In this document: positions 30,501-49,085 of the stretch, piece by piece | Layout of the letters: the number at the start of each line of letters is the position of its first letter | How positions within the stretch are numbered: position 1 is the first letter of the stretch | Assembly: GCF_024623785.1 (NCBI RefSeq) | Contig: NZ_JANKBZ010000003.1 | Coordinates: forward strand, 558,001 to 622,000 | Reading direction: 5' to 3' | From: Archangium lipolyticum | Lineage (GTDB): Bacteria; Myxococcota; Myxococcia; Myxococcales; Myxococcaceae | DNA: 64,000 bases | Notes under the pieces: generated by a model | Database searches by the model: none | What the model was told of the DNA's origin: nothing | Seen by the model: only the letters and a program-made list of their open reading frames with translations | Translations under genes and position numbers: made by a program

Positions 30501-31592
30501 ACCTGGGTCGAGGACTCCGACACGTCCAATGCCTACATTCTCTGGGCCCTGCTGGAGAGCACGGACAAGCCGGCGGAGCAGGCCCGTGAGCTGTCCAAGG
30601 AGGTGGGCGCGCTGAAGGCGGCCGCCCTCGAGAGCCAGAACAGCTACGTGCTCGCACTCGCCGCGAACGTGATGGCGCTCGCGGGGGACGGGGCCGAGGC
30701 CCGCAAGCTCATGGAGCGGCTCGCCGCGAAGCAGGGGAAGACAGGGGTGGTGGAGGGAGGCACGCAGTCGATCGTCGGCAGCTCGGGCGGGACGCTCCAG
30801 ATCGAGACCACCGCGCTGGCGGTGCTGGCCTGGCTGAGGGAGCCCTCCCACCTGGTGAACGTGGAGCGCTCGATGCGGTTCCTGGCGGACTCGTGCGAGG
30901 GAGGCCGCTACGGCTCGACCCAGAGCACGGTGCTCGCGCTGCGAGCCATCGTCGCCTACGATCAGGCGCGCTCGGCGAAGCGGGCTCCAGGCTCGGTCCG
31001 CGTCTACGTCGACGGCCGGCCCGTGGGCGGCGCCGTGAAGTTCGATGGCGGGGCGCAGGAGGCGCTCAAGCTTCCGGACGTGTCCGAGCTGCTCACGGTG
31101 GGCGAGCGGAAGATCGAGCTGCGGATGGAAGGCGGCTCGGAGCTGCCCTACTCGATCGAGGTCACCTACAACGCCCTCGTGCCGGCCAGCTCGCCAGACA
31201 CCCGGGTGGACCTGGAAGTGGCGCTGGCGAAGACGGCCCTGACCGAGGGCGAGCCGACCGAGGCACGCGTCCGGGTGACGAACCGGAGCGACCAGAAGCT
31301 GTCCACCACGGTGGCGATCTTCGGTGTGCCGGGCGGTCTCGAGGTCCGGCATGACCAGCTCAAGGAGCTGGTGAAGAAGCACACGGTGGATGCCTACGAG
31401 GTGATCGGCCGCGACGTCGTCCTCTACTGGCGGGGCATGGAGCCGCGCAAGAAGCTGGAGGTGCCCTTGTCGCTGATCGCGGCGGTGCCGGGCACCTACA
31501 CGGGTCCGGCGAGCCGCGCGTACCTGTACTACGCGGACAATCACAAGGTCTGGCGCGACGGCCTCGAGGTGTCCATCGCTCCGAAGCAGTGA
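27528..31592 (+). CDS. Thioester-containing alpha-2-macroglobulin family protein
   Basis: 1354 aa with an N-terminal signal sequence (residues ~1-33) and no lipobox, so it is probably periplasmic or secreted. The MG2 domain begins near residue 45 (FISTDKPLYRPGEQV). A Pro/Lys-rich, low-complexity stretch lies at ~560-640. The internal thioester motif GCFEQ (C879, E881, Q882) is intact, followed by the alpha/alpha-toroid thioester domain and a C-terminal receptor-binding-like beta domain. These proteins trap proteases covalently. In a predatory bacterium it may protect the cell from its own or foreign proteases. No pbpC gene is adjacent, unlike the common bacterial arrangement. Confidence 0.93.
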   Translation: MLEHVVPRVLLALATVGLVLPLPLHQQVLAARADTASLGGPGRSLTFISTDKPLYRPGEQVMARGLLLDARGHTPLANAVGATVEIRGPKGDVVTSASVVSQHSVWGYSWTIPQDMPGGEYTLRVSSSWTGDAPAERKFDVRAYRAPRLKSQIEFLRDGYGPGDTVTATLDVKRAEGGVPSGARVTATALVDGVTAAQVTGVVDARGLCTVSFKLPTRIERGEGSLAFAIEDGGVVETAAKTIPILLQTLDLTLYPEGGDLVAGLPSRVYFQALTPEQKPADLSGAVIDLSTGQVVAPVRSEHEGRGRFELTPKAGVKYALRIDEPSGIRKPFPLPEVKARGAVLRASEDVIPAGQPVVLTVGLSGVKQAKLTLSQREVELDSSRVDPNEKVILDPKDADGVLIATVWDADGRPLAERLVFRQPAKTLSIELKANKPRYVPGDQVELTARTTRGGKPVSALVMLTVTDDAVLELIEKRDQAPQLPVMVLLEPEVKELADAQVYFDEKNPKAKLAVDLLLGTQGWRRFALADTERFVAQHGDPARRALAVRIQLLDERFDGVPASAGALVPQAAHVPQEVPVPQAAPPAAPPVPSAKKPVAPRGMAEAERRAKKEAPRQPGIAARRPLADKMMAGVEVEPVVYFREYAHTVRPGRKPGDRVDFTETLFWNVGVRTDPKTGEVRVSFGLNDSVTSFKAFAGAVGDDGALGSAVATLESVQPFYVEPKLPLEVTSGDVIQLPLALVNGTSTTLQGAAVKVGLSGDVKASSLSGMNLAANERARRILELKVGSQSRPVDVTLTATAGSYVDTVKRTLSIKPNGFPLRASFGGLLSSRQPVVHPVTLPANHVRGSVKTSIAVYPSPLANMTESLARLIQEPSGCFEQTSSTTYPMTMAQQYFQTHSGVSPELVASAREKLETGYKRLVGFECPEKGYEWFGENPGHEALTAFGLMHFSDMKQVRDVDAAMLERTRAWLLKQRDGKGGFERKRRALHTWVEDSDTSNAYILWALLESTDKPAEQARELSKEVGALKAAALESQNSYVLALAANVMALAGDGAEARKLMERLAAKQGKTGVVEGGTQSIVGSSGGTLQIETTALAVLAWLREPSHLVNVERSMRFLADSCEGGRYGSTQSTVLALRAIVAYDQARSAKRAPGSVRVYVDGRPVGGAVKFDGGAQEALKLPDVSELLTVGERKIELRMEGGSELPYSIEVTYNALVPASSPDTRVDLEVALAKTALTEGEPTEARVRVTNRSDQKLSTTVAIFGVPGGLEVRHDQLKELVKKHTVDAYEVIGRDVVLYWRGMEPRKKLEVPLSLIAAVPGTYTGPASRAYLYYADNHKVWRDGLEVSIAPKQ

Positions 31593-33230: not shown

Positions 33231-33878
33231 TCAGAACTCGATGACGATGCTGACCCGGCCAGGCAGGTCCTGCTTCTGCTCGGGCTTCAGCCGGTAGCCC
33301 GGGCTGGAGAGGACGCCCAGGACGCAGTCGCGTTGCTTCCCGCTCAGATCGCCGCCCGTTCCCACGAGCTCGAGCGCATGGTCGGAGACGGAGCCGCTCG
33401 CGGCGTTCACCGCGGCCGTCCAGCGCAAGGCGCCGGGTCGATCGGTCCCACTGAAGCACTGGGCCAGGCGCGGGCTGCGCGCCGCGACCTGAAGGCGGAA
33501 GTCGTCCAGCCAGCTCGGCGAGATCTGCGCCTCGTTCTGGTAGCTCCCCCGCCGCTGACGCTCCATCCGATCGCTGAAGGCCTTCGGCTTGCTCGCGGGC
33601 GGCGCGGGCTTCTTCGGCTTCACCTCCGGCGCGGGGTTCACCACCGGCTCCGGTGGCGGCGCGGACGGCGACGGCGCGCACTCACAGCGCACCAACATCG
33701 CCAGGAGCAGCAGCGCGGCGATCGTCACCGCTCGACGAATACGTCTCCGCCTCTTCTCGCGTCGAACGGATGGGACCTGCTCCACCCGCTCGCGTGCCGC
33801 CCGCCTCATGAGCTCCGCCGAGCGGCGCAGTTCCTTCTTGCGCCGGCGCAGCTCTTGCCGAAGCTCCCTGGGGGTCAT
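33231..33878 (-). CDS. TonB-like protein with AgmX/PglI-type C-terminal domain; last gene of motor operon
   Basis: 215 aa from the ATG at 33878, which overlaps the preceding stop as ATGA. A very basic cytoplasmic N-terminus (residues 1-48) precedes one transmembrane helix (~49-63), then a Pro/Lys-rich periplasmic linker (~70-100) of TonB type. The C-terminal ~90 residues contain the Cys pair (C141, C185) and the SGSVSDHALEL..TG pattern of the AgmX/PglI C-terminal domain known from gliding-motility protein AgmX (GltJ). It could link the inner-membrane motor to outer-membrane partners. That role is inferred from architecture and position. Confidence 0.75.
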   Translation of the reverse strand: MTPRELRQELRRRKKELRRSAELMRRAARERVEQVPSVRREKRRRRIRRAVTIAALLLLAMLVRCECAPSPSAPPPEPVVNPAPEVKPKKPAPPASKPKAFSDRMERQRRGSYQNEAQISPSWLDDFRLQVAARSPRLAQCFSGTDRPGALRWTAAVNAASGSVSDHALELVGTGGDLSGKQRDCVLGVLSSPGYRLKPEQKQDLPGRVSIVIEF

Positions 33879-35785
33879 TCGGTGAGCCTCCACCCGAAAA
33901 CGAGTGCGCCCTTCGCGTCCCGCCACTCCACCGGCTCGAGCACGATCGGCGTGAATACGGATGGCGCCTCGGGCTCGGGCGGCCTGAAGGGCCATGGCAG
34001 CGGATCGGCCGGCGCGAGGCGGATGCTCCCGGCAAAGGTCGAGCGCGTGGGTGACAGCGCCCGCGCGTTCCCGCTCACCGAGTCATCGAGGTGGCTCAGG
34101 CCGTCGAGGATCGACTGGGTCCGCTCCATGAGCTCTTCGGCCGTCCGGCTCTGCGACTTCACCGTTGTGGATTCGACGGTCAGGGGCCGGAGCACCACGA
34201 GCACGTGCTTGAGCGTCGGAACGTTGGCCCGGCGGACGTCCGCATCCTCCGCTTCGATGTTCTCGAGGAGCTGTCGCACGAACCTCAGCACCGACGAGGG
34301 CTCCTCGGGGAGCGCGTCGCGCAGCCGCGTCGCCATCTCTCCCGGCTTTCCCTGCGACAGCGGCCGGAGCCGCTCGAGCGTCGCATCGAAGGAGCCACCG
34401 CGCCGGGCGGTCCGGGTAATCCGCTCGAAGGAACGCTCGTCGGCGCGCAGCGCGGCGCGCCAGACCAGATCCTCGATGACCTGGTTGTACTCCTGCCGCG
34501 GAACCAGCGCCTTCAGCGTGGCGACGACCTCGTCGTTGGTCTCGTAGCGGGAGAGCACGTATGACAGCCATCGCCGTGCGAGCCCCAGGGTGACGGCCGC
34601 CTCGCGCGAGGTCTCGGCCTGCTGCATGGCGTACGCGAAGGAGCGCAGGGACTCCTGCAGCTCTCCCACTTCCAGGAAGCCCACGCCCCGGTGCAGCGCG
34701 ACGACGGATCGCTCGCGGAACCCGGTGCTCTCATCGAGCTCGAGGAGGCGCTTGCCACGTTCGCCCGAGGTCAGCGCGCCGCGCAGCTCCGTCGAGTCGC
34801 TCGCTCCCATGAAACCGATCCAGGCCTCGAGCTCCTTCCCGTCCTTGCGGCGGATCAGCTCGTCGATGATCCCGAGCATGAGCTTCTGGAGCGCGTCCGG
34901 CTCCTTCGACAGCGGCTGCGCCCGAGCGAACAGGAACAGCCGCCGCTCCCGGTTCAGCGCCAGCCACTCCTGAGGGGTCCAGGTCAGGCTTCGTCGAAGG
35001 AACGCCGCCTGCGGCGAGTCCTCGGGGAAGGTCTCCAGCTTGCGCCGGAGCTCCGCCGCGCCGGCCGCGGAGACGCCGACCCCCCGGGCCTGCTGCGCGA
35101 TATTCCGAGCGTCGCGACGCGCCTTGCGCGCCTCCAGGTCCGCGATCACCAGATCGAGATCGAAGATGCGCGCCTCCACCACCGACAGGTTCCGGACCTT
35201 CTCCCGCACCAGGGTGGCGCGCGACTTCACCAGCAGATCGCGCAGGAGCCAGCCCGCGTTCAGTCGATCCTTGAGGTCGAGGAACGGGGTCCGTCCGAAC
35301 CGCAGCGCCGTGGTGGCCGGCAGCAGGCAGTTGGTACGGAAGAAGGTCACGGAACGCAGCTCCTCCGCCGAGAGCACGTCCTGCAGCGAGATGAACCGCT
35401 GCTGGCGCCCGACCTCGAAGACGTCCCACGGAGCGGGCGTCGAGGGCGGCGGGCCTCTGCTGAGCCCGTGGACGATCATGTTGTGCAGCCCCAGCGGCCA
35501 AAGGCCCGCGCCCTCCCGCTCGTCATCCTCGAACCCGTCCTGGCACAGCCCGAGGCTCCCGAGCGCGGCCCACACCACGGAGCGGAATTCAGGATCCTCT
35601 CGCGGGCGCTCGCCCTGCTGGAGAAGGCTGTTGCGAAGCAGCCACAGCTTGAGCACGTCCTCCGGACGATGGTCCCGGAGCGCGAGGCGCGCGTTGTAGA
35701 AGACCACGGTCTGCTTGGACGCCGTCGCCTCCGCGGCCACGGCGCTCGACAAGAGGCCAGCGACGATGGCGACGACCCAGCGCAT
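33875..35785 (-). CDS. Exported helical-repeat protein of unknown function (motor operon)
   Basis: 636 aa from the ATG at 35785, sharing one base with the previous stop (TGATG). It has a signal peptide (AIVAGLLSSAVAAEA). The body is almost wholly alpha-helical, with many charged helices and weakly repeating ~35-residue pairs, suggesting a TPR-like or solenoid scaffold in the periplasm. No catalytic motifs are seen and I do not recognise a named family. Tight coupling to the barrel-like gene before it and the TonB-like gene after it suggests a structural part of the same complex. Confidence 0.6.
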   Translation of the reverse strand: MRWVVAIVAGLLSSAVAAEATASKQTVVFYNARLALRDHRPEDVLKLWLLRNSLLQQGERPREDPEFRSVVWAALGSLGLCQDGFEDDEREGAGLWPLGLHNMIVHGLSRGPPPSTPAPWDVFEVGRQQRFISLQDVLSAEELRSVTFFRTNCLLPATTALRFGRTPFLDLKDRLNAGWLLRDLLVKSRATLVREKVRNLSVVEARIFDLDLVIADLEARKARRDARNIAQQARGVGVSAAGAAELRRKLETFPEDSPQAAFLRRSLTWTPQEWLALNRERRLFLFARAQPLSKEPDALQKLMLGIIDELIRRKDGKELEAWIGFMGASDSTELRGALTSGERGKRLLELDESTGFRERSVVALHRGVGFLEVGELQESLRSFAYAMQQAETSREAAVTLGLARRWLSYVLSRYETNDEVVATLKALVPRQEYNQVIEDLVWRAALRADERSFERITRTARRGGSFDATLERLRPLSQGKPGEMATRLRDALPEEPSSVLRFVRQLLENIEAEDADVRRANVPTLKHVLVVLRPLTVESTTVKSQSRTAEELMERTQSILDGLSHLDDSVSGNARALSPTRSTFAGSIRLAPADPLPWPFRPPEPEAPSVFTPIVLEPVEWRDAKGALVFGWRLTE

Positions 35786-36600
35786 CAGAGTGTCCAGCCC
35801 AAGCCGAGCGAGAGCTCCCACCAGAGCCCCAGGCCCGTTCCGGTGACGCCGCCCAACAGCGGCACCGCCATCATCGCCCGCGGCGAAAGGAAGCCTCCGG
35901 ACCCGAAGTACACGTCCACGGAGAGCCCCGCGAGGAGGCCATACCGGGCAGGGTCGATCTGCATGCCACCCGGCCGCGAGGACTCGAGCTGCCCCAGCTC
36001 ATGGTCGGTGAGGCGCGGCGCGAGGATCGAGGTGGCGACCTGCTGGAACTTCATGCCGCCCATCGACCCCGGGTAGAAGAGATAGCGGAAGCCAGCGTTG
36101 GCCGAGAACACCAGCTGGGTCGCGGGGAAGAAACCGGGCAGCGCGGTCACCACGCCCTCCGCCAACGGGTACCCGACGTTGATGTCGAGCTCGAAGCGGC
36201 TGGGGCGGCCGTGTTGGCGGTACGGCGTGAGCGCCAGCTTCTCGGTGCTGTCGGTTCCCCACGTGAACGCGCGGGTAATGGCCACCTCCCCCACGAAGCT
36301 CCCGAACGGCTTGCGCGCCATGAGTCCAAGGCGGGTGCTGCCGAAGTTGTTCCGCTCGAGGAGCTCGCTGCCGATCAGCCCGAACCCGAGGGTGGACTTC
36401 CGCCAGTCGAAACGCACCGACTTCGAGGCCGCGCCGATCATCCGCTCGGTGAGCGCGTCGATCGGCGTGCGGAAGCCCTCCAGCGCGTCGTCGACCTTCT
36501 CGGGGTCGGCGGGGGGCGGTTCCGGGGCCTGCGCTTCCGCGGCCAGCACGGCGCGCGGCAACGACAGGAGGACGAAGAGGACGAGGAGGCTACGGATCAT
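35785..36600 (-). CDS. Putative outer-membrane beta-barrel protein (motor operon)
   Basis: 271 aa from the ATG at 36600 with a signal peptide (LSLPRAVLAAEA). After a Pro-rich segment the sequence alternates short amphipathic strands rich in Gly and aromatics (LGFGLIGSELL, FSANAGFRYLFY, GLGLWWELSLGLGWTL) and ends in a strand-like hydrophobic C-terminus, as outer-membrane barrels do. It overlaps the upstream lipoprotein gene by 11 bp and the downstream gene by one base. The exact family is not recognised. Confidence 0.55.
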   Translation of the reverse strand: MIRSLLVLFVLLSLPRAVLAAEAQAPEPPPADPEKVDDALEGFRTPIDALTERMIGAASKSVRFDWRKSTLGFGLIGSELLERNNFGSTRLGLMARKPFGSFVGEVAITRAFTWGTDSTEKLALTPYRQHGRPSRFELDINVGYPLAEGVVTALPGFFPATQLVFSANAGFRYLFYPGSMGGMKFQQVATSILAPRLTDHELGQLESSRPGGMQIDPARYGLLAGLSVDVYFGSGGFLSPRAMMAVPLLGGVTGTGLGLWWELSLGLGWTL

Positions 36601-38593
36601 GCGGGAAGCCTCCGTCACCCGGCCGCGGGAACATCGGGCGATAGCACTGCATGCGGTAGGCGTCCCGGAACAGCGCCTGTACGTTGTAGGTGACGCTCGT
36701 ATCGAACGTCGGGTGAGCGCAGAAGCGCGTGCATTGCGCCAGGATGTCGCCCACGGGGAACTCGCCCGTCGTCCACGTCTGGCTTGCCCAGGTCTCCTCG
36801 CGGGAGCTGACAATTCCGAACGGCACGGAGAACGAGTAGGCCGTCGCGGCTCCGGCGAGATAGCTCTCGTATTTCGCCTTCAACAGGAACGGGAAGTCCC
36901 AGAACAGCCCGAGCGCATACGCGGGCTGCGGGGCCGACTGGTGCAGTTCGGGAAGCAGCTCGAGCCCTACCGGCTCCGGCGTGCTCGGAGTGCGGAACAC
37001 AATCCTCCTCTTGTCCGCCTCCGGGCAATAGGAGAACGCATCGCCCGGCTCCGCCGTGATGAGCTCGTTGTTGTAGAAGGTCGCGGTCCCGAACTCTCCG
37101 ATCGGTACGTTGTCGGAGAGCGGCGTGTGCTCGGGAGCCCGGAACGACATCGAGGTCATCCTCCCCGCCTGGGCCTCCGAGTACTTCCCGATGAACCGGA
37201 GGTACTGCGCACGGGTCGTCAGGATCGGGATCTGATTGAAGCGGAACGGCCCGAGCTGGAGGTCGGGGATCTCCGACACCGCGGGGCAATTGCTCGACGC
37301 GTCCGCTGGGACCTCGCCGAGGTCGTCGACCGGGTGGTTGGGTGGGCACCACAACACCAGTCGCCGGAGCTCCGGGCGCCCGACGACGTGCACCACGCTG
37401 TCGTAGACGAAGGCACCGGTGACTCGCGGCGAGCTCTTGTCCCGCTCGAAGGGCAGCACTTTCTGGAGCGCCTCCTCGAGCACGGTGCCCAACCGGCCCG
37501 TCGTGTCGTCGTGATGGAGACCCAGCACGAGGACCATGTCCCGCCCCTGCATCCGCACCTGATCGATCCGCGTGCGGAACTGGGAGGCGAGCTCGTCGGC
37601 GAACCCGCGAACGTTCCAGTCGTCGATGCAGATCTCCGGAGCGTCCTCGAGAAAGAGGCGCTGCTCCTGCATCTTGTAATGCGGCGAGGAGATCGTCCGT
37701 CGGCACGGGCTCAACATGAACTTGACCGGGATGTTCTCGGTGATCGGGCTGCGCAGGACCGGGAAGGCCGGGCGGACCTGCGGGTTCTTTCGCGCCAGCG
37801 TCACCGCCTCGAAGGTGCCCCCCTGTGCATCGGTGACGGTCGAGCGCGCACAGACGACCGGGGACTCGGACGCCGACAGCGGAAGCGTGCCCACGTCGAA
37901 CACGGCCCGATCGGTGGTCTCCACCGGTCCGAAGTCCAGCGGCGGCAGCGCTCCCGGACAGCCCGGAACCGAACCGTAGCCGTACGGGTTCTGGCCGAAG
38001 TTCGCGGCGATGGCGCCGTGCCGCCGGTCGGAGATGGAGAAGTGGCGCCGCAGTCCGTACTTCTGCACGTCGTGGTTCCGCAGCGTCGGGAACTGGTGCC
38101 GGGCGCGCCATTGCACGTGCGTGTTGGTCTCGTCGAACACGCCGTACACCAGCAGGCTCCGGTTCGTGTGCGCCGGCCCCCTGCCGATGACGTTGAGGAC
38201 CACGCGCGCGTTCAGCGCCATCTCGCCGTCACGGTGGTAGCGCAGCCGCAACCTCACGTCGCGCGGCGGCTCGCCAAGCGCCAGGCTGGTGCTGCCGCAC
38301 ACGCTCTTGGGGCCGCAGTCGACCGGAACGTGGGTGTGAACCGTGCGGAGCTGTGACAGCGGCGTCCAGGGCAGCTCGAAGTGATCGGTGCGGACCGTGA
38401 GCTCGATCTGGCTCTCGGGCCCCAGCCCCTGCTCGGCGTTGGCCTGGTAGAAGACGAAGAGCGTGTCCTCCTCCTCGAACCAGGCCACGTCCGCGAGCGC
38501 GAAGCCCGCGTTGATGTCGACGATCGGCACCTTCTCGCAGGCGGCGACCGCGATGGCGATGATCCCGATGAGCAGCAGGCGCGCGCGGTCCAT
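36590..38593 (-). CDS. Large lipoprotein of unknown function (motor operon)
   Basis: 667 aa from the ATG at 38593 (RBS GGTGGACGGG); the longer frame upstream has no signal sequence. The lipobox is AVAAC (Cys about residue 19). The mature protein has mixed alpha/beta character with several Cys residues, but no family I can name. It is encoded 14 bp after the FliG-like gene and overlaps the next gene by 11 bp, so its synthesis is coupled to both. It is a candidate stationary or outer-membrane-anchored component. Confidence 0.55.
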   Translation of the reverse strand: MDRARLLLIGIIAIAVAACEKVPIVDINAGFALADVAWFEEEDTLFVFYQANAEQGLGPESQIELTVRTDHFELPWTPLSQLRTVHTHVPVDCGPKSVCGSTSLALGEPPRDVRLRLRYHRDGEMALNARVVLNVIGRGPAHTNRSLLVYGVFDETNTHVQWRARHQFPTLRNHDVQKYGLRRHFSISDRRHGAIAANFGQNPYGYGSVPGCPGALPPLDFGPVETTDRAVFDVGTLPLSASESPVVCARSTVTDAQGGTFEAVTLARKNPQVRPAFPVLRSPITENIPVKFMLSPCRRTISSPHYKMQEQRLFLEDAPEICIDDWNVRGFADELASQFRTRIDQVRMQGRDMVLVLGLHHDDTTGRLGTVLEEALQKVLPFERDKSSPRVTGAFVYDSVVHVVGRPELRRLVLWCPPNHPVDDLGEVPADASSNCPAVSEIPDLQLGPFRFNQIPILTTRAQYLRFIGKYSEAQAGRMTSMSFRAPEHTPLSDNVPIGEFGTATFYNNELITAEPGDAFSYCPEADKRRIVFRTPSTPEPVGLELLPELHQSAPQPAYALGLFWDFPFLLKAKYESYLAGAATAYSFSVPFGIVSSREETWASQTWTTGEFPVGDILAQCTRFCAHPTFDTSVTYNVQALFRDAYRMQCYRPMFPRPGDGGFPHDP

Positions 38594-38607
38594 CCCGTCC
38601 ACCTCAC

Positions 38608-40476
38608 CTAGGCGATGATCTCCGCGAAGGAGACCTTCCCTCGCGCGACCTGCTTCTTCACGGCCGAGATCAACTCGTTCTGGCCGCGCCGCGCGGCCCT
38701 GAGCTGCTCCTCGCGCGAGACGAACGACATGTTGGCGCGGATGGCGTTCTGCATCGTCGGCGCGAGCCGCGCGATGAAGCTCTCCTGCCACGCTGGCTGC
38801 TGCACCGAGGACCAGCCGGCGAGCCCCCGGACGTCGACGTCGAGCAGCAGGTCCCTCTGGAGCTCGTCGGGCAGCTTGAGCAGCATGTCGCCGTAGAGGA
38901 TGTCCTGGTACCAGAGCGGCAGCGTCCCGCCGGAGCGCCCCAGCGCGCGCGCGAACAGCTCACCGCGCGCGGAGGACTCGATCAGCGGCAACAGCACCGA
39001 GAGCGCGCCGGCGGCGTCGAACTGGCGACCCCGGTCCAGGATGCCCTGGGCCGGAGGAGCCGGGGGAAGCGGCTTCCCCGCGCGCGCGGCGTCGAGCACC
39101 TCGAACAGGTGGACCGTCTCCTCCTTCGAGATGCGGTTGGACGCGAGCAGCTCGTTGGCGATCCGCACCCGCAGCTCGGGCGACATGATCCGCGCCACGT
39201 CCTGCTGGCAATCGGTGGGCACGTGCCCGAACAGCAGCGCCCCATGACGTGGCGACAGGCTGTCGATCAGGTTCGCCACGCCGTTGGAGCCGAACTCCTC
39301 GCGGAGGCTGCGGTACACCTCGGCGTCCGCCTGGGCCATCAGCGTGGAGGAGATGGCGTGCTGGTTCAGCAAGCGGAAGAACTCCGCATCCGAGAGCAGC
39401 GCCTTCTCGTCCACCGTCTTCAGATACCCGGCGAACTCCACCTTGCGCACGGCGAGCTCACCGTCCGAGGTGAAGGCCAGGGACAGCCGATCGCCGAAGA
39501 CGAAGATGGCCTTGGCCAGCAGCTCGAACTCGCCGGCCTTCAGCCAGTCGCGCAGCAGCTCCACCACCATGCTGTCGCCCTTGGCCAGCTCGGCCTGGGC
39601 GATCCGGTCGTTCCACAACTGCTGCTGGGCCGTGACGAACGCGGTCTCCGCATCCCCTTCTGAAGGCGCCGGGTCCGCCCCGTCTGGAGACGGCTCCTCG
39701 GCGTCCGGGGGCGTCTTGGCCTCCGCCGCCTTGTCGAACGAACCCGCCGCGAGCTGCGCCGCCAGCGCCTTCTCCTCGAGCGTCTCTCGCCCAAGGCGAC
39801 GCAGGGCCCAGATGACGGTCAGCGCCGCCATCGTCAACATGACCAGCGCGATCATCCACGAGAAGTGCGGAAGCAGGCTGACCCAGAGCTCCCGCAGCGC
39901 GACGTTCGCTTCCCACGTCGTCGGCGCCGGCGGCTCCACCGGCTTCTCCTCGACCACCGGCGCTGGCGGCTTCGGGGGCTCGGGCGGAGGCGGAGACTCG
40001 CGCAGTCCCGGAGAGATCGGCTGGAGGATCTGCCGGCCGACCTTCACCTTGAGCCACCCCTTCGACAGCCGCTGCTCGAGGCGCCGGACCAGGGCCTGGA
40101 CGTCCTGGGTGGGGACCGACTTCTCGTGGGTGAACTCGCACTGAGCCTGCGTCAGGTACTCCTGCGACGGCACGCTGCCGGGGCCTTCGGTCTGGCCGAG
40201 CCCGGGCAGGGAGCTGGTGCGCGGCATGTCGACGGTGACGTGGTCGCGGTAGACACAGCCCTTGGAGAAGCAGCGCTCGGGGGCGCAGTCCTGTGCCAGC
40301 GCGAGATCGAACTGACTCTCGAGCGTGCGCAGCTCCAGGAGGACGGGCGCGGGGACATGGCTCTGCGGCACCGGCGCCGGCGCGTCAGGGAGGCTGGTGC
40401 CGGTCGGGGGTTGGGTCTGGGCCTCCGCCACGGCGCTCAACGCGACCCAGGCGACGAGGACGGCGAAACGTCTCAT
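38608..40476 (-). CDS. Membrane-anchored protein with FliG-like cytoplasmic region (putative rotor)
   Basis: 622 aa, starting one base inside the previous stop (TGATG). Residues 1-20 are a signal-like segment; ~20-200 are predicted periplasmic, with four Cys and a Pro-rich stretch (~161-187); one transmembrane helix lies at ~204-225; the rest is cytoplasmic. Residues ~402-455 match the FliG middle-domain pattern (LIDSLSPRHGALLFGHVP, then SPELRVRIANELL). Residues ~525-622 match the FliG C-domain pattern (GDMLLKLPDELQRDLLLDVD, a central NMSF, and RRGQNELI near the end). True FliG is soluble; a version fused to a membrane anchor is unusual. With the MotA/MotB-like genes next to it, a torque-receiving role is inferred. 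Confidence 0.7.
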   Translation of the reverse strand: MRRFAVLVAWVALSAVAEAQTQPPTGTSLPDAPAPVPQSHVPAPVLLELRTLESQFDLALAQDCAPERCFSKGCVYRDHVTVDMPRTSSLPGLGQTEGPGSVPSQEYLTQAQCEFTHEKSVPTQDVQALVRRLEQRLSKGWLKVKVGRQILQPISPGLRESPPPPEPPKPPAPVVEEKPVEPPAPTTWEANVALRELWVSLLPHFSWMIALVMLTMAALTVIWALRRLGRETLEEKALAAQLAAGSFDKAAEAKTPPDAEEPSPDGADPAPSEGDAETAFVTAQQQLWNDRIAQAELAKGDSMVVELLRDWLKAGEFELLAKAIFVFGDRLSLAFTSDGELAVRKVEFAGYLKTVDEKALLSDAEFFRLLNQHAISSTLMAQADAEVYRSLREEFGSNGVANLIDSLSPRHGALLFGHVPTDCQQDVARIMSPELRVRIANELLASNRISKEETVHLFEVLDAARAGKPLPPAPPAQGILDRGRQFDAAGALSVLLPLIESSARGELFARALGRSGGTLPLWYQDILYGDMLLKLPDELQRDLLLDVDVRGLAGWSSVQQPAWQESFIARLAPTMQNAIRANMSFVSREEQLRAARRGQNELISAVKKQVARGKVSFAEIIA

Positions 40477-41102
40477 CAGTAGATCCTCACGACGACACGG
40501 CGGTGCCGGGCCAGGCGCTCGTCTTCGCTCAGGCCCTTCAGCAGTTGCTCGGGGAGCGGCTTCGTCTCGGCGTAGCCCTCGACGCGGATGCGCGAGCGGT
40601 CGATCCCGACCTCCTCCAGCCGCTGCCGCACCATGATGGCGCGCGCGCTGGAGAGCTCCCAGTTGCTCGCGAACAGTCCACCACTCACGATCGGTGTCGA
40701 GTCGGTGTGCCCCTCGACCGCGAAGTTGTACTTCGACGAGTACGGCGAGAGCTCCTTCAGCATCGACGCCACGGTCTCCTCGAACTCCGGCCGGATCTTC
40801 GCCTTCCCCGAGTCGAACACGAGCCCGGAGTTGAGGGACACCTCCAGCCCCGCGTCGGTCACCGTGGTGGTCACGAGATCCTGCAGGTTCTTGGCGGCGA
40901 TCTGCGCCTCGATCTCCTTGCGGATCGACTCCAGGCTCTCCGGGCTCTGCTTGCCGGAGATGCTCTGGGCGATCTGCTGCATCTTCAGCTTGCTGAAGTT
41001 CGCCGCGGTCAACAGCACCACGAAGAACAGCAGCAGGTTGGTGATCAGATCGGCATAGCTGAGTAGCCAGCTCTCCTCATGCCCCGCTTTCCGTCTTTGC
41101 AT
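40476..41102 (-). CDS. MotB-like stator protein with OmpA-type peptidoglycan-binding domain
   Basis: 208 aa; RBS AAGGTGAG. The single N-terminal transmembrane segment carries the MotB signature ESWLLSYADLITNLLLFF, with the proton-binding Asp at position 18. The periplasmic C-terminal part (~90-208) is an OmpA-like domain with GHTD (D134), NWELSSARA and RHRRVVV, which anchors stators to peptidoglycan. It starts 9 bp after the MotA-like gene, the canonical stator gene order. No other flagellar stator context is present. Proton conduction is predicted from the intact Asp. Confidence 0.9.
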   Translation of the reverse strand: MQRRKAGHEESWLLSYADLITNLLLFFVVLLTAANFSKLKMQQIAQSISGKQSPESLESIRKEIEAQIAAKNLQDLVTTTVTDAGLEVSLNSGLVFDSGKAKIRPEFEETVASMLKELSPYSSKYNFAVEGHTDSTPIVSGGLFASNWELSSARAIMVRQRLEEVGIDRSRIRVEGYAETKPLPEQLLKGLSEDERLARHRRVVVRIY

Positions 41103-41111
41103 GGCTCACCT

Positions 41112-41819
41112 TCACCGCTCGCCACGGGAGACGATCTCGTTGACGCTCTTCTCGCACCGCTCGATCAACCCCAGGCGGTCGTCGAGCAACCCGTTGAGGT
41201 AGTGCCCGATCGGCCCGGCCACGCCGGCGCCGAACGCCACGCCGTACAGGGTCGCGAGCAGTGCCAGCGACATCGCCGCGCCGATGTTGAGGTTCTCCGA
41301 GCTCATGTTGCGGAAGAGCTGGATCATGCCGGTGATGGTGCCGACCATGCCGAACGCCGGCCCCAGCTTGGAGAGCATCTCCCAGTTGTGGATCGCCGGC
41401 TGCCACCGGCTGATCTCCTCATGCCGCAGCTCGGTGAAGGTCTTGTTGCTGGAGGCTTCGGTCGCCCGGTTCAGGATCAACTCCAGCATCTGCTTCACCG
41501 CGGGGAAGCGGCTGTTCGCGGCCAGATCGACCGCCTGGCTGCGCTTGCCATCGCGCCACAGTGCGGACAGCTGATCGCGCTCGGCCTCCATCGCCCGGGT
41601 GGTCCGACTGAACAGCGCCAGGCCGGGGATCAGCTCACGCAGGCACAGGATGGTGCGCCACGCGGTGGTGTGGCTGGAGCTCACCAGCACCGCCGAGCAC
41701 GACCCGACCAGCACCATCACCAGCGCGTGGGCGTCGAACGCGGAGATGACCGCGTCGCTGCGATCCTTGAACCCGTACCAGATGATGAAGCCCAACAACA
41801 CAAACCCGATGATCTGCAC
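41112..41819 (-). CDS. MotA-like proton-channel stator subunit
   Basis: 235 aa from a GTG at 41819, with AGGAGAAG upstream. The topology is that of MotA rather than TolQ/ExbB: two N-terminal helices (~1-17, ~31-48), a ~100-residue cytoplasmic loop, then two helices (~148-168, ~180-206). The last pair carries KLGPAFGMVGTITGMIQLF and AAMSLALLATLYG. The loop contains the charged stretch WRDGKRSQAVDLAA, the part that contacts FliG in flagella. Together with the MotB-like partner it should form a proton-driven stator ring in the inner membrane. Confidence 0.88.
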   Translation of the reverse strand: MQIIGFVLLGFIIWYGFKDRSDAVISAFDAHALVMVLVGSCSAVLVSSSHTTAWRTILCLRELIPGLALFSRTTRAMEAERDQLSALWRDGKRSQAVDLAANSRFPAVKQMLELILNRATEASSNKTFTELRHEEISRWQPAIHNWEMLSKLGPAFGMVGTITGMIQLFRNMSSENLNIGAAMSLALLATLYGVAFGAGVAGPIGHYLNGLLDDRLGLIERCEKSVNEIVSRGER

Positions 41820-41834
41820 GAGATGCTTCTCCTG

Positions 41835-42464
41835 TTACTGCTGGCGCTGGAGCTCTTCGAGCTTCTTGCGGACGCCAGGCTCACTCTCGATGGCTTCGAC
41901 CTGCTCGTAGATTTCGATGGCCTTCTCGCGCTCCCCCATCATCAGGAGCAGCGAGCCCTTGGCCCGAAGGAACTCGGGGTGCGACTTGTAGCGTGCCAAC
42001 ACGGTCTCACACCACTCGAGGGCCAGGTGGTAGTTGCCCTCGCGGGTGGCCTGCTCCATCAAGGTGCGCGCGCGGGTGATGCTCACCTCCGGCGCCTCTT
42101 CGTCGATGCGCAGGCCGCGCGCCCGGTAGGCCTCGATGAGCGCCTTGTCCGCCGCGGAGGGCGGCGGTGGCACCAACCGGCTGGCGGGGATGGTCTTCAC
42201 GTCGCCGTTGCCCGCGCCGTGCTCGATGACGATGCGCTGACCCGTGGCCAGCATGGGCACGTCGACCTCGGTCATCAGGTTGCCGTCGTTCCAGCGGACC
42301 TTCATCACCGTGGTCGATCCGAAGCCGAAGGGCCGCACCAGTGTCCCCTCCTCCTTGAGCGCCTCGGGCTTCTTCGGCGCCGGCTCGACCAGGTAATAGG
42401 TGTAGTTCCGCGTCGCGCAGGCGGAGGCCAGGAGCGGCAGCAGGATGAGCAGGATTCGGTTCAT
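41835..42464 (-). CDS. TPR-like lipoprotein (motor operon)
   Basis: 209 aa from the ATG at 42464, overlapping the upstream stop as ATGA. The lipobox is LASAC (Cys ~16). The N-terminal half is beta-rich; residues ~130-205 form two to three tetratricopeptide-like helix pairs (MEQATREGNYHLALEWCETV, then KAIEIYEQVEAIE). The arrangement suggests a periplasmic adaptor, comparable in position to TPR lipoproteins in other envelope machines. It ends 15 bp before the MotA-like gene. Confidence 0.7.
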   Translation of the reverse strand: MNRILLILLPLLASACATRNYTYYLVEPAPKKPEALKEEGTLVRPFGFGSTTVMKVRWNDGNLMTEVDVPMLATGQRIVIEHGAGNGDVKTIPASRLVPPPPSAADKALIEAYRARGLRIDEEAPEVSITRARTLMEQATREGNYHLALEWCETVLARYKSHPEFLRAKGSLLLMMGEREKAIEIYEQVEAIESEPGVRKKLEELQRQQ

Positions 42465-43423
42465 GGCAGGAAGGGCAGCGCGGTGATGTTCATGAGGGAG
42501 ATCCCGAAGCCGATTCTCCCGTTGGTGGATGCGGTGAACGTGACGCCGTAGTTCGAGCTGGCGATCGGCATGCGCACCACGAAGACACCGGTCAGCAGCG
42601 GGTCGATGACCTCGACCGACCCGCCGCTGATGCCGCTGGCGACGGCCGTGGGCACGCTCAGCAGGACCTTCGCGCCGACCATGATGTTCAGCGCGCTGGG
42701 GATGACGCGGTAGTAGGCGCCGCCCACCCCAATCAACGGGTCGTAGGCGGAGAGGGACAGGCCGGCGAGGTTCGCGTTGGTGTCGCCCCACTGCTCCGCC
42801 CAATCCAGGGAGATGTGCTGGCCGGGGTACATCGTCACGTCGAGGAACGTGTGGGTGAGGCTGTCTCCCCGCGCACGCCGCTCCAGCTCTTCAGTGAGGG
42901 TGAAGTTGCGGCGGGTGCGGGCCAGCTCGGTGAGCCCCGGGTCGAAGTTCTGCACGAACACGATGCGGCTGTTGTGCAGATCGATGATGCGCAACGAAAC
43001 GCCCTCCAGCGTCTCGTCGAGCCAGATCGCCACCCGGGCCGACGGGGCCCTTCCACGTGCGTTCTCGTCCAGCCGGATGATCTCCTCTGTTCCCAGCGAG
43101 GTCGTGAACTGCTCGAGCCGGCCCTCCTCCACGAACAGGCGCGACGCCATGCACGCCTCGCAGGAACGGAGCGAGGCGGAGCCGAACACGCGAACCAGGG
43201 ACTGCAACGCGGCGGTCGGGTACCAGGCTTTCGACTCCTCGAAAGCCGGCGAGACGCTCACCACGATGGCGGGAGTCACGTCCTTCAACGCGATCCCGCC
43301 CTGCTCCAGGCGCAGTGTGAGGGTCTCCTCCACCCGGGCGAGCGCCTCGCGCGAGGTGTCACGCTGGGCGAGGGCCACGGCCGGCAGCAACACGGCGAGG
43401 AGTGCGAGGTGCTTCAGAAGCAA
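42461..43423 (-). CDS. Exported protein, alpha/beta N-terminus plus barrel-like C-terminus (motor operon)
   Basis: 320 aa if started at the TTG at 43423, which follows GGAGGTG by 5 nt and opens directly into a signal peptide (LLAVLLPAVALAQR); no ATG serves. It overlaps the previous gene by 10 bp. The mature N-terminal part has an alpha/beta pattern with a CEAC motif (~residue 90). The C-terminal ~120 residues are Gly-rich amphipathic strands suggestive of a membrane-associated barrel. The same layout, including a CxxC, is seen in the next gene upstream, so the two may be distant paralogues. The family is not identified. Confidence 0.55.
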   Translation of the reverse strand: MLLKHLALLAVLLPAVALAQRDTSREALARVEETLTLRLEQGGIALKDVTPAIVVSVSPAFEESKAWYPTAALQSLVRVFGSASLRSCEACMASRLFVEEGRLEQFTTSLGTEEIIRLDENARGRAPSARVAIWLDETLEGVSLRIIDLHNSRIVFVQNFDPGLTELARTRRNFTLTEELERRARGDSLTHTFLDVTMYPGQHISLDWAEQWGDTNANLAGLSLSAYDPLIGVGGAYYRVIPSALNIMVGAKVLLSVPTAVASGISGGSVEVIDPLLTGVFVVRMPIASSNYGVTFTASTNGRIGFGISLMNITALPFLP

Positions 43424-44619
43424 AACGTCACCTCCGCGCCCACCGTGTGGAACTTCAGGAGATCGAGCAGGTTCAGGTGGGCACCGACCGAGGGCGCATT
43501 GTCGAGCGCCGGCGCGGACTCGAGGAACACCGAAGCCCCGATGCGATTCCCGACACGCAGCTCGAGCCCGATCGGAAACGCGGCGAAGGTGGCGTGGGGC
43601 TGGACGAGCAGCTGCGGGATGTTGGAGAGGACATCCTCCAGGTTCAGCACCTGGTTCTGGAACACCCGCGCGCCCTGCCCGTGGATGGAGATCACGGAGC
43701 CGCCCACGAAGACGTAGAGATCCGGCCGGGTGAGCGATGCGACCGAGCCGGTGAGCAGGCGGGAGATGCGCGCCTGCGCCATGAAGCCCGTGTGCAGCTG
43801 GGGCATCCAGGTGACGCCCGCCGAGAGGGTGCCGGTCCAGGCCCGCGCCTGGGTGAGCGCCACCTCGGTCCCGACCTGCAGCCAGATGAAGGGCATCGCC
43901 GCGACCGCGGTTCCGTTGGATGGCGGGGCGTAGCTCCGCACCGCGATGCGCATCGGCACGGTGAACACGCCGCGGCCCTGGAGGGCGTCGAGGTACTCCT
44001 TGCGTGCCTCGGCCGCGCTCTTGAGCTGGTCGCCCGAGCGCAGCAGCGCCGGCGACGACGTGGAGGTCGTGAGGGTCCGCGCGTGGATGATCGGAAGCGC
44101 CGGCTCCAGCGAGGTGATGCGGGCGCGCAGCACCAGCGCGCTGCCCTCCGCCTCGAAGTCGAGGAAGATCGCATGGCGCGCACCGGAGAGCGCGCCCGCG
44201 GCGGCCAGCGTTTCCGGCTGGTCCACGCCGCGGGAGACGATCGTCCCCTTCGCGCCCGAGTGCACCACCACTGCGGTGCACTGCGGGCAGTGCGCCAGGG
44301 TCAGCCGGGTGCGCGGGTTCTTCACCACCAGGTTGGCGAAGTGGTTCTCGATCAGGGCCGCCAGTCCACTGCCGAAGCCCACCGGTACGGTGACGTCGGC
44401 GAGCACCACCGGTGTCTCCAGCTCGAAGACCGGCTGCTGCGTCCAGCCGTAGACGAGCTCGTCGAGCAGGTCGTACGCCTGCAGCTGGATCTGCCCTGCC
44501 ACCTCCGCGCGGAGCTTCTCCATCTGCGCCCGCTGCGCCTCGGCGATCTCCGGGGCCACCGCCGCCCACGACGACGAGGAGACCAGCGCGAGCGTGAGTG
44601 CGAGAAGCGCCGGCCTCAT
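43414..44619 (-). CDS. Exported protein with CxxC and barrel-like C-terminus (motor operon)
   Basis: 401 aa from the ATG at 44619 (ATGA overlap with the upstream stop), signal peptide to ~19. Residues ~35-190 show an alpha/beta domain with a CPQC motif, reminiscent of the nucleotide-binding-like ABD fold of FlgO/CsgG-type envelope proteins; this resemblance is by pattern only. The C-terminal ~190 residues are alternating strands (FIWLQVGTEVAL, GTLSAGVTWMPQL) ending in the aromatic EVTFCF, as in outer-membrane proteins. It is probably paired with the 320-aa protein that follows. Confidence 0.55.
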   Translation of the reverse strand: MRPALLALTLALVSSSSWAAVAPEIAEAQRAQMEKLRAEVAGQIQLQAYDLLDELVYGWTQQPVFELETPVVLADVTVPVGFGSGLAALIENHFANLVVKNPRTRLTLAHCPQCTAVVVHSGAKGTIVSRGVDQPETLAAAGALSGARHAIFLDFEAEGSALVLRARITSLEPALPIIHARTLTTSTSSPALLRSGDQLKSAAEARKEYLDALQGRGVFTVPMRIAVRSYAPPSNGTAVAAMPFIWLQVGTEVALTQARAWTGTLSAGVTWMPQLHTGFMAQARISRLLTGSVASLTRPDLYVFVGGSVISIHGQGARVFQNQVLNLEDVLSNIPQLLVQPHATFAAFPIGLELRVGNRIGASVFLESAPALDNAPSVGAHLNLLDLLKFHTVGAEVTFCF

Positions 44620-45257
44620 CGCAGCCATCTCCACTCTCCATTCAGACACAGTCCGGCGTGGAGCTGCGTCTCCCGTTCGTCGATCAGCATGATCCCCAGG
44701 AACGCGTCGTTCTCGCCGAGCGCGCGTTGAGCGAAGTAGCGCTTGCACGCCAGCGGATAGGCATCCTTCGGCGCCATGCGGCCGAGCACCGCGATGTCGC
44801 CAGCGGCGAGGATCGGAACCTTGTCGGAGACCCTGCGTCCCTGCTCGGCGAGCTCGGTGCGCGCCGCCACCGAGATCTTCGCCGCCACCTCGGGCTGGGG
44901 ATAGAAGGCGTCGACGTGCCAGTTGAGCTCGCCCTGCCCCAGCGCGCTGGCGACCTCGGCGATCTCTCCCACCGACTCGCGCAACGAAGCGAGGATGACT
45001 TCGTCGCGCTCCGGCCGCTCTCCATTGCGCATGATGCGCCGGGTGCAGATGAGCGCCTCGGACTCCTGGTTCGCCATGCGCGCGAGCGGCGCGGGGATCT
45101 CGCCCGGGTGGAGCTCATGCGCCCGCTGCTGGCTCACGCGCGAGCAGTCGAGGTTACGCGCCTCTGACTTGTCGTGCCAGATGCCGGGCGCGGGGTCGTA
45201 CGGGCGCCCCGAGGACATCGAGAGTTGCACCAGGAGGAAAACCAGCAGGGTTTCCAT
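44616..45257 (-). CDS. Small exported protein of unknown function (motor operon)
   Basis: 213 aa; the ATG at 45257 shares a base with the previous stop (TAATG). A short signal-like N-terminus (METLLVFLLVQLSMSSG) is followed by a mostly helical mature part with scattered Cys residues (RNLDCS, ALICTRRI, LACKRYF, GLCLNGEW). No family is recognised. Its only clue is tight coupling to the neighbouring envelope genes. Confidence 0.5.
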   Translation of the reverse strand: METLLVFLLVQLSMSSGRPYDPAPGIWHDKSEARNLDCSRVSQQRAHELHPGEIPAPLARMANQESEALICTRRIMRNGERPERDEVILASLRESVGEIAEVASALGQGELNWHVDAFYPQPEVAAKISVAARTELAEQGRRVSDKVPILAAGDIAVLGRMAPKDAYPLACKRYFAQRALGENDAFLGIMLIDERETQLHAGLCLNGEWRWLR

Positions 45258-46000
45258 TATGGCTCCGTGCCCGTCTGGCGCTGTTCGCCCCCGGCCTGGG
45301 GACGGGGCTCGAACGAGCGCAGCACGTCGGATCGGACCCGCGCGTTGAAGGCGAGCTGGCTCAGCTGTGCGTAGAAGTCGCGCGAAAAGTCCCGCGCCGG
45401 CGCCTGGCCCGTGAGCTCCTCCTCCGTTGGGCGCACGAGGGCGTCGAGCACCCAGTTCACGCCCCATATTCCGGCGCCGAAGTACTCGATGAAGCGCGCC
45501 TTCAGGCTGTCGGATGCGAGCAGGAACCCGCTCGCGTCGCGAATGGTCACGTCCTGCGCGACGCTGTACTCCGTGAAGGCCGGCACGATCGTGAGGGAGA
45601 GGGCCGTGAGGGCCCACAGAGGGCCGCTGCCCTCCTTGTGGAGGAGCCGCGACGAGAGATCGACGACCAGGTCGGGCTGGGTGCCCTCTTCGAGGTTCCG
45701 CGACGATCTGCCATTGCGAGGCACGTCGGTTTCGACCTTCGCGCCCTGGTTTCGGAACAGCGCGCCGACCCTGCGGCAGAGGAGCTCGGCGTCTCTCGCC
45801 TTGATGTAGTCCCCCGGGACGCAGCGCACGAGCAGGCGCATGCCCTCGAGGTTCGCGAGCTGCGGATCGACGATCGCCGGGCGCTGCAATGAGCTGAGCG
45901 GCTGGTAGACGGTGACGCAGCCGGAGAGCAGCGCGCCCAACAGCAGCACCCGGCCCGCGTCACTCGCATTGCGCCTGAATTTCACAGCACGGCTCATCAT
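45257..46000 (-). CDS. Lipoprotein, first gene of the motor operon
   Basis: 247 aa from the ATG at 46000; a second ATG at 45997 is equally possible and the RBS is weak. The lipobox is LLSGC. The first half has an alpha/beta character (MRLLVRCVPGDYI, then RRVGALFRNQGAKVE) like small ABD-type envelope domains. The second half contains a hydrophobic stretch (LWALTALSLTIVPAF) and strands. The product is likely anchored to the inner leaflet of the outer membrane. Eleven further genes follow on the same strand with overlaps or gaps under 16 bp. Function unknown. Confidence 0.55.
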   Translation of the reverse strand: MMSRAVKFRRNASDAGRVLLLGALLSGCVTVYQPLSSLQRPAIVDPQLANLEGMRLLVRCVPGDYIKARDAELLCRRVGALFRNQGAKVETDVPRNGRSSRNLEEGTQPDLVVDLSSRLLHKEGSGPLWALTALSLTIVPAFTEYSVAQDVTIRDASGFLLASDSLKARFIEYFGAGIWGVNWVLDALVRPTEEELTGQAPARDFSRDFYAQLSQLAFNARVRSDVLRSFEPRPQAGGEQRQTGTEP

Positions 46001-48182: not shown

Positions 48183-49085
48183 ATTCGTCTCCGAGCGTGC
48201 ATCGCACTTCTGCTCTATGTCTCAGCCTGCGCTACGTCAGCGCCCAGCCCGAAAGAGCCAGCGGCCCGGGACCCGAGGCTCGCCAACCTCCAGCGAGCGG
48301 CGACACTGCCCTGGACGGATGGGGGGCGGTGTGCCGTTCAGGAGGCTTCCGAGCCCTGGCCCGTGTTGGCGGAGCGGTGCTTTTATGTCCTCGACCATGA
48401 CCGGGTTCGGTTTCGGGACATCACGGGCAGATGCGCCGTCGCCTCCGCAGGTGCGGCGGTGGGCGTCGGACTCTGTGTCTTGGCGGGGCCGGAGATCGTC
48501 GTGGGAGCGGTAATTGTCGCGGGCGTGGTGGTGGTGGGATTCGCCATCAAAGAGGCCCTGGATGCGTATGCGCTGGATATGGGCCGCCCCGAGGTAAGGC
48601 CCGTGCCTGAAACAGCTCCCGCCCCGCAGAAACCCTCGCCGAAAAAAAGGCCCAAGCCCGAGCCAAAAGGGCCGGACTTCCCTCCCGTGGGGCCAACCGA
48701 AGTCACGGAGCGAGATCGCCCCAGGTGCGAGCCCGTCCCAGTGCCGCACGAGGGCAAGGATGACGCGCATAACAAGTGCGCCGATCAGTTTCCGCCCAAC
48801 CGTTATCCCGGAATGGATGTACTAGTGGGCGGCGTGAGCTTCGATGCGCTGCAAGTCGGCGTGCGTGTGCTGTGGGAAATCAAGACCCATCAATTTGACA
48901 CGTACCCTGACTTTATCCGGAGGCGGGAAATTGAGAAGGAATTGGAGCAAATGCTAAGGGAGCGAACTGCTGCGGCGGCATGTGGATACGACTTCGTCGT
49001 TGGGGTGAGCACCCAAGCGCACAAAGACGCGCTGCTCGAAGCGGATTCCTCGCTTAACGTCGTCGTCACGGGGTGCAAACGATGA
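48183..49085 (+). CDS. DUF6310-like lipoprotein with nuclease-like C-terminus (putative toxin)
   Basis: 300 aa if translation starts at the ATT at 48183. GGAGGA lies nine bases upstream and the residues that follow (RLRACIALLLYVSACA) are a textbook lipoprotein signal, whereas the first ATG-like start further in would lose it. No ATG, GTG or TTG exists between the upstream stop at 48153 and this point. A hydrophobic pair of helices lies at ~95-130. The C-terminal ~90 residues (PNRYPGMDVLVGG, VLWEIKTHQFDT, ACGYDFVVGV) look like the myxobacterial DUF6310 family; the EIK is consistent with a PD-(D/E)xK-type nuclease core. The stop overlaps the next gene as ATGA. Confidence 0.65.
   Translation: MRLRACIALLLYVSACATSAPSPKEPAARDPRLANLQRAATLPWTDGGRCAVQEASEPWPVLAERCFYVLDHDRVRFRDITGRCAVASAGAAVGVGLCVLAGPEIVVGAVIVAGVVVVGFAIKEALDAYALDMGRPEVRPVPETAPAPQKPSPKKRPKPEPKGPDFPPVGPTEVTERDRPRCEPVPVPHEGKDDAHNKCADQFPPNRYPGMDVLVGGVSFDALQVGVRVLWEIKTHQFDTYPDFIRRREIEKELEQMLRERTAAAACGYDFVVGVSTQAHKDALLEADSSLNVVVTGCKR

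Follow-up and report, generated by a model that had tools for sequence, protein, structure and literature searches.

We describe twelve adjacent genes, g1 to g12, on the minus strand of a 64,000-nucleotide stretch of the Archangium lipolyticum genome (contig NZ_JANKBZ010000003.1, positions 558,001 to 622,000; hereafter the window), and we propose, with a probability of roughly 60%, that they build a non-flagellar, ion-driven motor in which a MotA/MotB stator and the membrane-anchored FliG-like protein g8 transmit force outward from the inner membrane to proteins of the outer membrane. The genes occupy positions 33231-46000 of the window, with transcription running from 46000 to 33231, in a host genome of 12.6 Mb. 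An earlier interpretation of the same DNA from its letters and open reading frames (the sequence-only reading) had proposed a rotary or force-transmitting complex across both membranes. Profile searches and structural models support its stator, rotor-like protein, and outer-membrane parts, while rotation, a surface force, and a purpose are carried here as proposals.

The core of the putative motor is the adjacent pair g6 and g7, to which a Pfam scan of all twelve proteins (E values up to 1) assigned families, confirming the claim of a MotA-like and a MotB-like stator. g6 (41112..41819, minus strand; 235 residues, GTG start) is a MotA-type stator subunit (PF01618, 1.2e-15) that aligns with flagellar MotA chains, with two of them over nearly its whole length. 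g7 (40476..41102, minus strand; 208 residues) is a MotB-type subunit in which both the plug and the OmpA-type cell-wall domain, a feature of flagellar-type (FIT) stators, scored above the Pfam cut-off (MotB_plug, 1.3e-14; OmpA, 8.2e-15). The best flagellar MotB-type model matched g7 at 3.4e-35, and the best solved relatives of both proteins are flagellar stators. Residue Asp18 of g7 (codon 41049..41051, minus strand) is Asp in all 23 aligned rows and, by analogy with the MotB family, is likely the proton-binding Asp. In g6, P154, T161, and P203 are found in 23 of 23 rows and R93 in 22; the position eight residues after R93 is E or D in 19 of the 23 rows and A or G in the window and three other Archangium rows. 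In Escherichia coli, the MotA-FliG contacts given in an excerpt of PMC12505986 are R90 with D288-D289 and E98 with R281, so that the spacing in g6 is that of the FliG-facing R90 and E98 of MotA.

The candidate partner of this stator is g8 (38608..40476, minus strand; 622 residues), a membrane-anchored FliG-like protein that is likely a rotor. A periplasmic helix-strand-strand-helix-strand domain that may resemble a ring motif (residues 43-151; 40024..40350) is followed by a membrane helix between the two halves, seen both in hydropathy and in the model (residues 190-227; 39796..39909), and then by a predicted FliG-like middle and C-terminal part (residues 294-616; 38629..39597). With the model of the cytoplasmic part as a Foldseek query, the first 13 rows were all FliG or flagellar C-ring or motor entries (best E value, 2.7e-4), and FliG_C superposed on the model at 2.3 Å over 87 of 88 residues. 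Direct sequence search did not link g8 to FliG, and Pfam gave only a sub-cut-off match to MgtE_N. A profile chain reached FliG in two steps, from g8 to tG, a protein of a sister operon (95.3%), and from tG to FliG (94.2%). The structural model and this chain predict that the cytoplasmic part of g8 folds as the FliG middle and C-terminal domains, which upholds the claim of a membrane-anchored FliG-like protein.

Two observations weigh against a plain flagellar clutch between g6 and g8. The charges of FliG R281, D288, and D289 are not kept, the aligned g8 positions 574, 581, and 582 being uncharged and mainly T or S, A, and N or S. Furthermore, the EHPQ-type motif, through which the FliG middle domain binds FliM, occurs in 0 of 28 g8 rows (three of these rows being partial sequences) versus 26 of 27 FliG rows. 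Because the torque charges are absent, the clutch is not a plain copy of the flagellar one, and any push of g6 on g8 would use a chemistry other than that of flagellar MotA and FliG. Elsewhere in the C-terminal part, g8 has near-constant residues of its own (W555 in 27 of 27 rows, S557 in 25, Q559 in 26, and Q576 in 26 of 27).

These same absences are what favors the main rival explanation, a stator acting alone in the manner of TolQR or ExbBD, in which ion flow through g6 and g7 would drive a cyclic pull through the TonB-like protein g12 and the FliG-like part of g8 would be a static helical-repeat scaffold or a regulator. Pfam sees another helical domain, MgtE_N, below the cut-off in g8, and g12 is TonB-like in layout, with a likely homologue, tI, that also ends the sister operon. 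We consider this explanation unlikely, although it is a serious competitor. g7 is of the MotB type and not of the TolR/ExbD type (MotB_plug at 1.3e-14 versus ExbD at 0.059, below the cut-off), which also sets the operon apart from Tol-Pal and TonB systems; the structural fit of FliG_C spans that domain of g8; and the R93 spacing of g6 matches that of a MotA facing FliG.

Further evidence against a stator acting alone comes from two related operon types in Myxococcota, in both of which Pfam itself assigns FliG_C to the protein paired with MotA. Thus, two operon types besides the twelve-gene operon (type I) also place a MotA gene next to the gene of an anchored FliG_C protein. Type III is the sister operon, with nine genes (tA-tI; loci L117, L119-L121, L124-L130, and L132) that include g3-, g5-, MotA-, MotB-, FliG-, and TonB-like genes. 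It has homologues of g3/g4, g5, g6, g7, g8, and g12, and the order tC-tD-tE-tF-tG is that of g3/g4-g5-g6-g7-g8, with tI as the last gene of type III, as g12 is of type I. The profiles of tE and tF, which were built from phmmer matches to type III references, include type II sequences, and that of tE also includes two flagellar MotA, so that the links of g6 to tE and g7 to tF are not clean evidence of kinship with type III. Unlike type I, type III has no detectable g1, g2, g9, g10, or g11: profile comparison gave no link between g9 and tH, g10 and tA, or g11 and tB, and no type III partner for g1 or g2. The N-terminal domains of g8 and tG likewise compared at only 0.2%, and type II against g8 at 2.2%. 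Archangium lansinium (L117) carries type III and the twelve-gene operon in one genome.

Type II (loci L110, L111, and L113-L116) is a smaller operon. Its genes are one for an anchored protein, in which a weak FliF_C match precedes a clear FliG_C; one further gene; MotA; and, in a second difference from type I, two MotB genes. An LPGL-type motif, which may be a chance likeness, is common to the type I and type II periplasmic domains. In a tree of MotA proteins, type I grouped with type III, with weak support (82/79) and on long branches, beside rather than inside flagellar MotA; type II grouped with flagellar MotA, and of the own genome's eight ExbB/TolQ-type proteins, seven stood apart. This tree used ten type I rows, with the MotA candidates L153 and L154 left out; neither T3 nor T3b, two of its groups, forms a clean clade, a 98-residue piece (GIT_L008) falls among type III, and six of the eight GIT rows cover less than half of the columns. 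Two other loci have frames of 500 to 590 residues whose matches to FliG are weak and in an odd order, with neither MotA nor MotB detected alongside (L118, 6589-8352; L122, 3-1571).

The twelve genes of type I are themselves conserved as a unit. All twelve frames were confirmed on the minus strand at coordinates fixed beforehand, and their junctions, in transcription order, are overlaps of 1, 13, 10, and 4 bp, gaps of 15 and 9 bp, an overlap of 1 bp, a gap of 14 bp, and overlaps of 11, 1, and 4 bp. The series with short overlaps and gaps described from the sequence therefore holds (overlaps of at most 13 and gaps of at most 15 bp), with lengths that depend on the gene starts chosen. A single search with g8 gave a match in 16 of 78 relatives, and a g8 profile gave a match in 28 of 195 genomes of the phylum. 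We kept 27 as carriers, excluding one genome (G166; 8e-6 over 106 residues) because none of the other eleven genes was present. Comparison of the resulting 27 loci, all from the 26 carriers other than the own genome, revealed all twelve genes in one order on one contig piece in 17; the other ten were interrupted by contig ends, with no gene absent inside the covered part. As an example, g2 was kept in 12 of the first 15 loci, the other three being interrupted by contig ends. The stator and FliG-like genes travel together in every fetched locus as far as its contigs reach.

The carriers span five families (f1, f3, f17, f24, and f25); within the genus labelled g1, one of six genomes (G002) had no g8 match. 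The order of all twelve genes is kept down to about 40% protein identity: between the window and the genus labelled g5, identity is about 40% for proteins g1 and g12 and 68 to 71% for g6 and g7. Across genera the flanks yielded four weak frame pairs (26 to 32% identity), and strong flank matches were found only within the genus labelled g5. Since the flanks diverge while the twelve-gene order holds, the unit ends at g1 and g12. The distances of the twelve proteins correlate at 0.89 or above (16 rows), as expected for joint inheritance of the genes. The conserved order is more than chance. A scan of genome contigs with g8 alone gave only two close relatives, and a search of 5.8 billion proteins found at least 355 relatives of g8. 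Among the 120 matches listed, the named ones are hypothetical proteins (from Archangium, Hyalangium, Cystobacter, Myxococcaceae, and the like), and one is labelled in UniRef as a FliG C-terminal domain. A protein search from a distant g8 member found at least 93 relatives, one of them from a bin labelled Alphaproteobacteria. In one locus (Archangium violaceum Cb vi76; L030, 9464-9541), g8 is split over two frames near residue 25, by either a sequencing error or a genuine break.

Considering the flagellar character of its stator and rotor-like parts, the operon might be a vestige of a flagellum or a type III secretion system. The operon shares with the flagellar motor the MotA/MotB stator with plug and OmpA domain, a predicted FliG-like middle and C-terminal fold, and a membrane base of its own. 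In contrast to the flagellar motor, it has one anchored protein, g8, instead of FliF plus FliG; that protein is without the torque charges and the EHPQ-type motif; and the operon brings its own outer-membrane barrels and lipoproteins. It has no flagellar filament, rod, or export genes, and searches of the own genome (G000) detected neither FliG_C nor Flagellin_N, both of which were found in control genomes. A full-strength FliG (7e-26 or better) also occurs in at least 12 of the 27 carriers, where the operon is therefore not left over from a lost flagellum. The own genome also has two YscJ-type and two FliMN_C-type genes, paired as in type III secretion, on other contigs (C7:395696-402943 and C31:66023-68513). 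Together with twelve conserved genes in constant order, these findings make a relic hardly credible. A natural precedent for the architecture of g8 is the Chlamydiaceae FliF-FliG fusion of a non-flagellated bacterium. As described in PMC4768692, it likewise carries a FliG part on the same chain as a membrane helix and a periplasmic domain; in contrast to g8, that FliG part is the middle domain only.

The remaining genes encode envelope proteins. The best described of these is g3 (43414..44628, minus strand; 404 residues), for which Foldseek and VIA assigned an LpoB-like periplasmic domain (residues 49-190; 44059..44484) and an eight-stranded outer-membrane barrel (residues 220-404; 43417..43971) to a model with a pLDDT of 71.7. 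g3 is thus predicted to join an LpoB-like domain to an outer-membrane barrel. g4 (42461..43423, minus strand; 320 residues, TTG start) is exported and a relative of g3, as both have the common homologue tC in the sister operon (97.6% for g3 and 95.0% for g4). Of the at least three exported proteins with barrel-like ends claimed before, g3 has its predicted barrel and g4 is linked through this homologue. g10 (35785..36600, minus strand; 271 residues) has a possible barrel, and both it and g11 (33875..35785, minus strand; 636 residues) appear exported from an N-terminal hydrophobic stretch. g2 (44616..45257, minus strand; 213 residues) appears exported from its N terminus as read by eye.

The three lipoproteins that had been claimed stand, each with a lipobox-type Cys that is invariant in its alignment. 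These are g1 (45257..46000, minus strand; 247 residues; lipobox LSGC, Cys28 in 8 rows), g5 (41835..42464, minus strand; 209 residues; Cys16 in 11 rows; homologue tD at 95.7%), and g9 (36590..38593, minus strand; 667 residues; lipobox VAAC, Cys19 in 13 rows), a Cys-rich protein with 13 Cys. The description of g5 as TPR-like was confirmed by a TPR match that is weak and below the cut-off. The signal peptides of g1, g2, g5, and g8 are by-eye readings below the hydropathy threshold that we used. Beyond g6, g7, and the sub-cut-off matches in g5 and g8, the other eight proteins were without a Pfam family, and an NCBIfam scan of ten proteins (g10 and g11 were left out) gave nothing further for g1-g4 and g9. 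Pfam searches with every aligned member at E values up to 10 found nothing consistent for g1 (8 rows), g3 (11 rows), or g12 (12 rows), and PDB sequence searches with profiles of g3, g8, and g9 gave no relevant match.

The last gene, g12 (33231..33878, minus strand; 215 residues), has the layout of TonB, with a membrane helix (residues 47-65), a Pro-rich stretch, and a small C-terminal domain, and its likely homologue in the sister operon is tI (81.5%). The sequence-only reading had made g12 a TonB-like protein with an AgmX/PglI domain. The layout was confirmed and the AgmX/PglI identity was rejected, as 0 of 12 g12 orthologues match NF033768; that model matches 13 places in the own genome, none of them inside the window. 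This result bears on the idea that the operon represents an offshoot of the Agl-Glt gliding machinery, which in Myxococcus, of the same phylum, likewise combines an ion-driven stator with lipoproteins, a TonB-like protein, and other envelope-spanning partners in one envelope machine. In addition to the missing AgmX/PglI domain, the stator class differs: the excerpt of PMC12505986 places AglRS among non-flagellar (generic) stators, without the plug and OmpA domain present in g7. FliG has no occurrence in an Agl-Glt review searched for the word. We therefore regard an Agl-Glt offshoot as very improbable, the Glt proteins not having been searched one by one.

A defense system of the Zorya kind is the least probable of the explanations weighed here. 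Zorya has as partner genes ZorA and further Zorya proteins, and g7 does match ZorB models (best, 5.1e-19). However, g7 fits flagellar MotB-type models better, and among the ten proteins scanned with PADLOC (g10 and g12 were outside the scan), the nine others, including g6, had no match, to ZorA or otherwise. Such a system would not be expected to include lipoproteins or an outer-membrane barrel either. For each of the flagellum, Agl-Glt, Tol/Ton, and Zorya, the operon lacks a feature that was tested, and no known machine tested accounts for its gene set. Neither identity with one of these machines nor a breakdown of synteny, either of which would have counted against the sequence-only reading, was thus observed.

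Our data are most consistent with a model in which a MotA5MotB2 complex of g6 and g7, fixed to the cell wall by g7, would turn with ion flow, and the cytoplasmic face of g6 would push g8 at its FliG-like end. Having a membrane anchor of its own, g8 would combine the roles of base and rotor, as in a FliF/FliG fusion, presumably as a ring. The periplasmic domain of g8, together with g5 and the TonB-like g12, may then act on the g3/g4 barrels and the lipoproteins g1 and g9 by torque or by a cyclic pull. With no switch genes in the operon, the motor would run one way. As a first guess, the output might be a surface force or the movement of surface proteins. More broadly, the chances seem about evenly balanced that there is a family of non-flagellar stator-rotor machines, spread over three or more operon architectures in Myxococcota, in which dedicated MotAB pairs turn FliF/FliG-like rotors that carry their own anchor and torque is led via the periplasm to outer-membrane barrels and lipoproteins.

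Stators without flagella are already known. In searches of the open-licence PubMed Central literature, we came across no report of a stator that, in the absence of a flagellum, has a FliG-type rotor of its own, nor of a system with this gene set; the sequence-only reading likewise knew of none. Considering this together with the failed features of the known machines, we rate the operon as a categorically new system. If the proposed motor is real, its rotor would be the first of the FliG type to be shown working, with a dedicated stator, outside the flagellum. The operon could then also provide an outgroup for the assembly history of the flagellar motor, and it would add a new force-generating machine to those of bacteria that are noted for their gliding and predation.

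Other features of the region concern its expression and surroundings. Third-position GC content is 0.83 to 0.94 for nine of the twelve frames; the values for g2, g4, and g5 (0.67 to 0.77) were computed on over-long frames and are little informative. A scan of the operon region found no promoter and three terminator-like sites, fewer than the shuffle mean of 4.7, which leaves transcription as one unit unproven. In one locus (L034, 913-1482), a second, partial g11-like stretch lies beyond the operon end. At 48363-49837 on the plus strand of the window, overlapping genes have strong matches to DUF6310 and DUF5953, both families of unknown function. Downstream of the operon, at 27528-31592 on the plus strand, is a gene for a bacterial alpha-2-macroglobulin (A2M), which also adjoins the operon in one other Archangium (L028).

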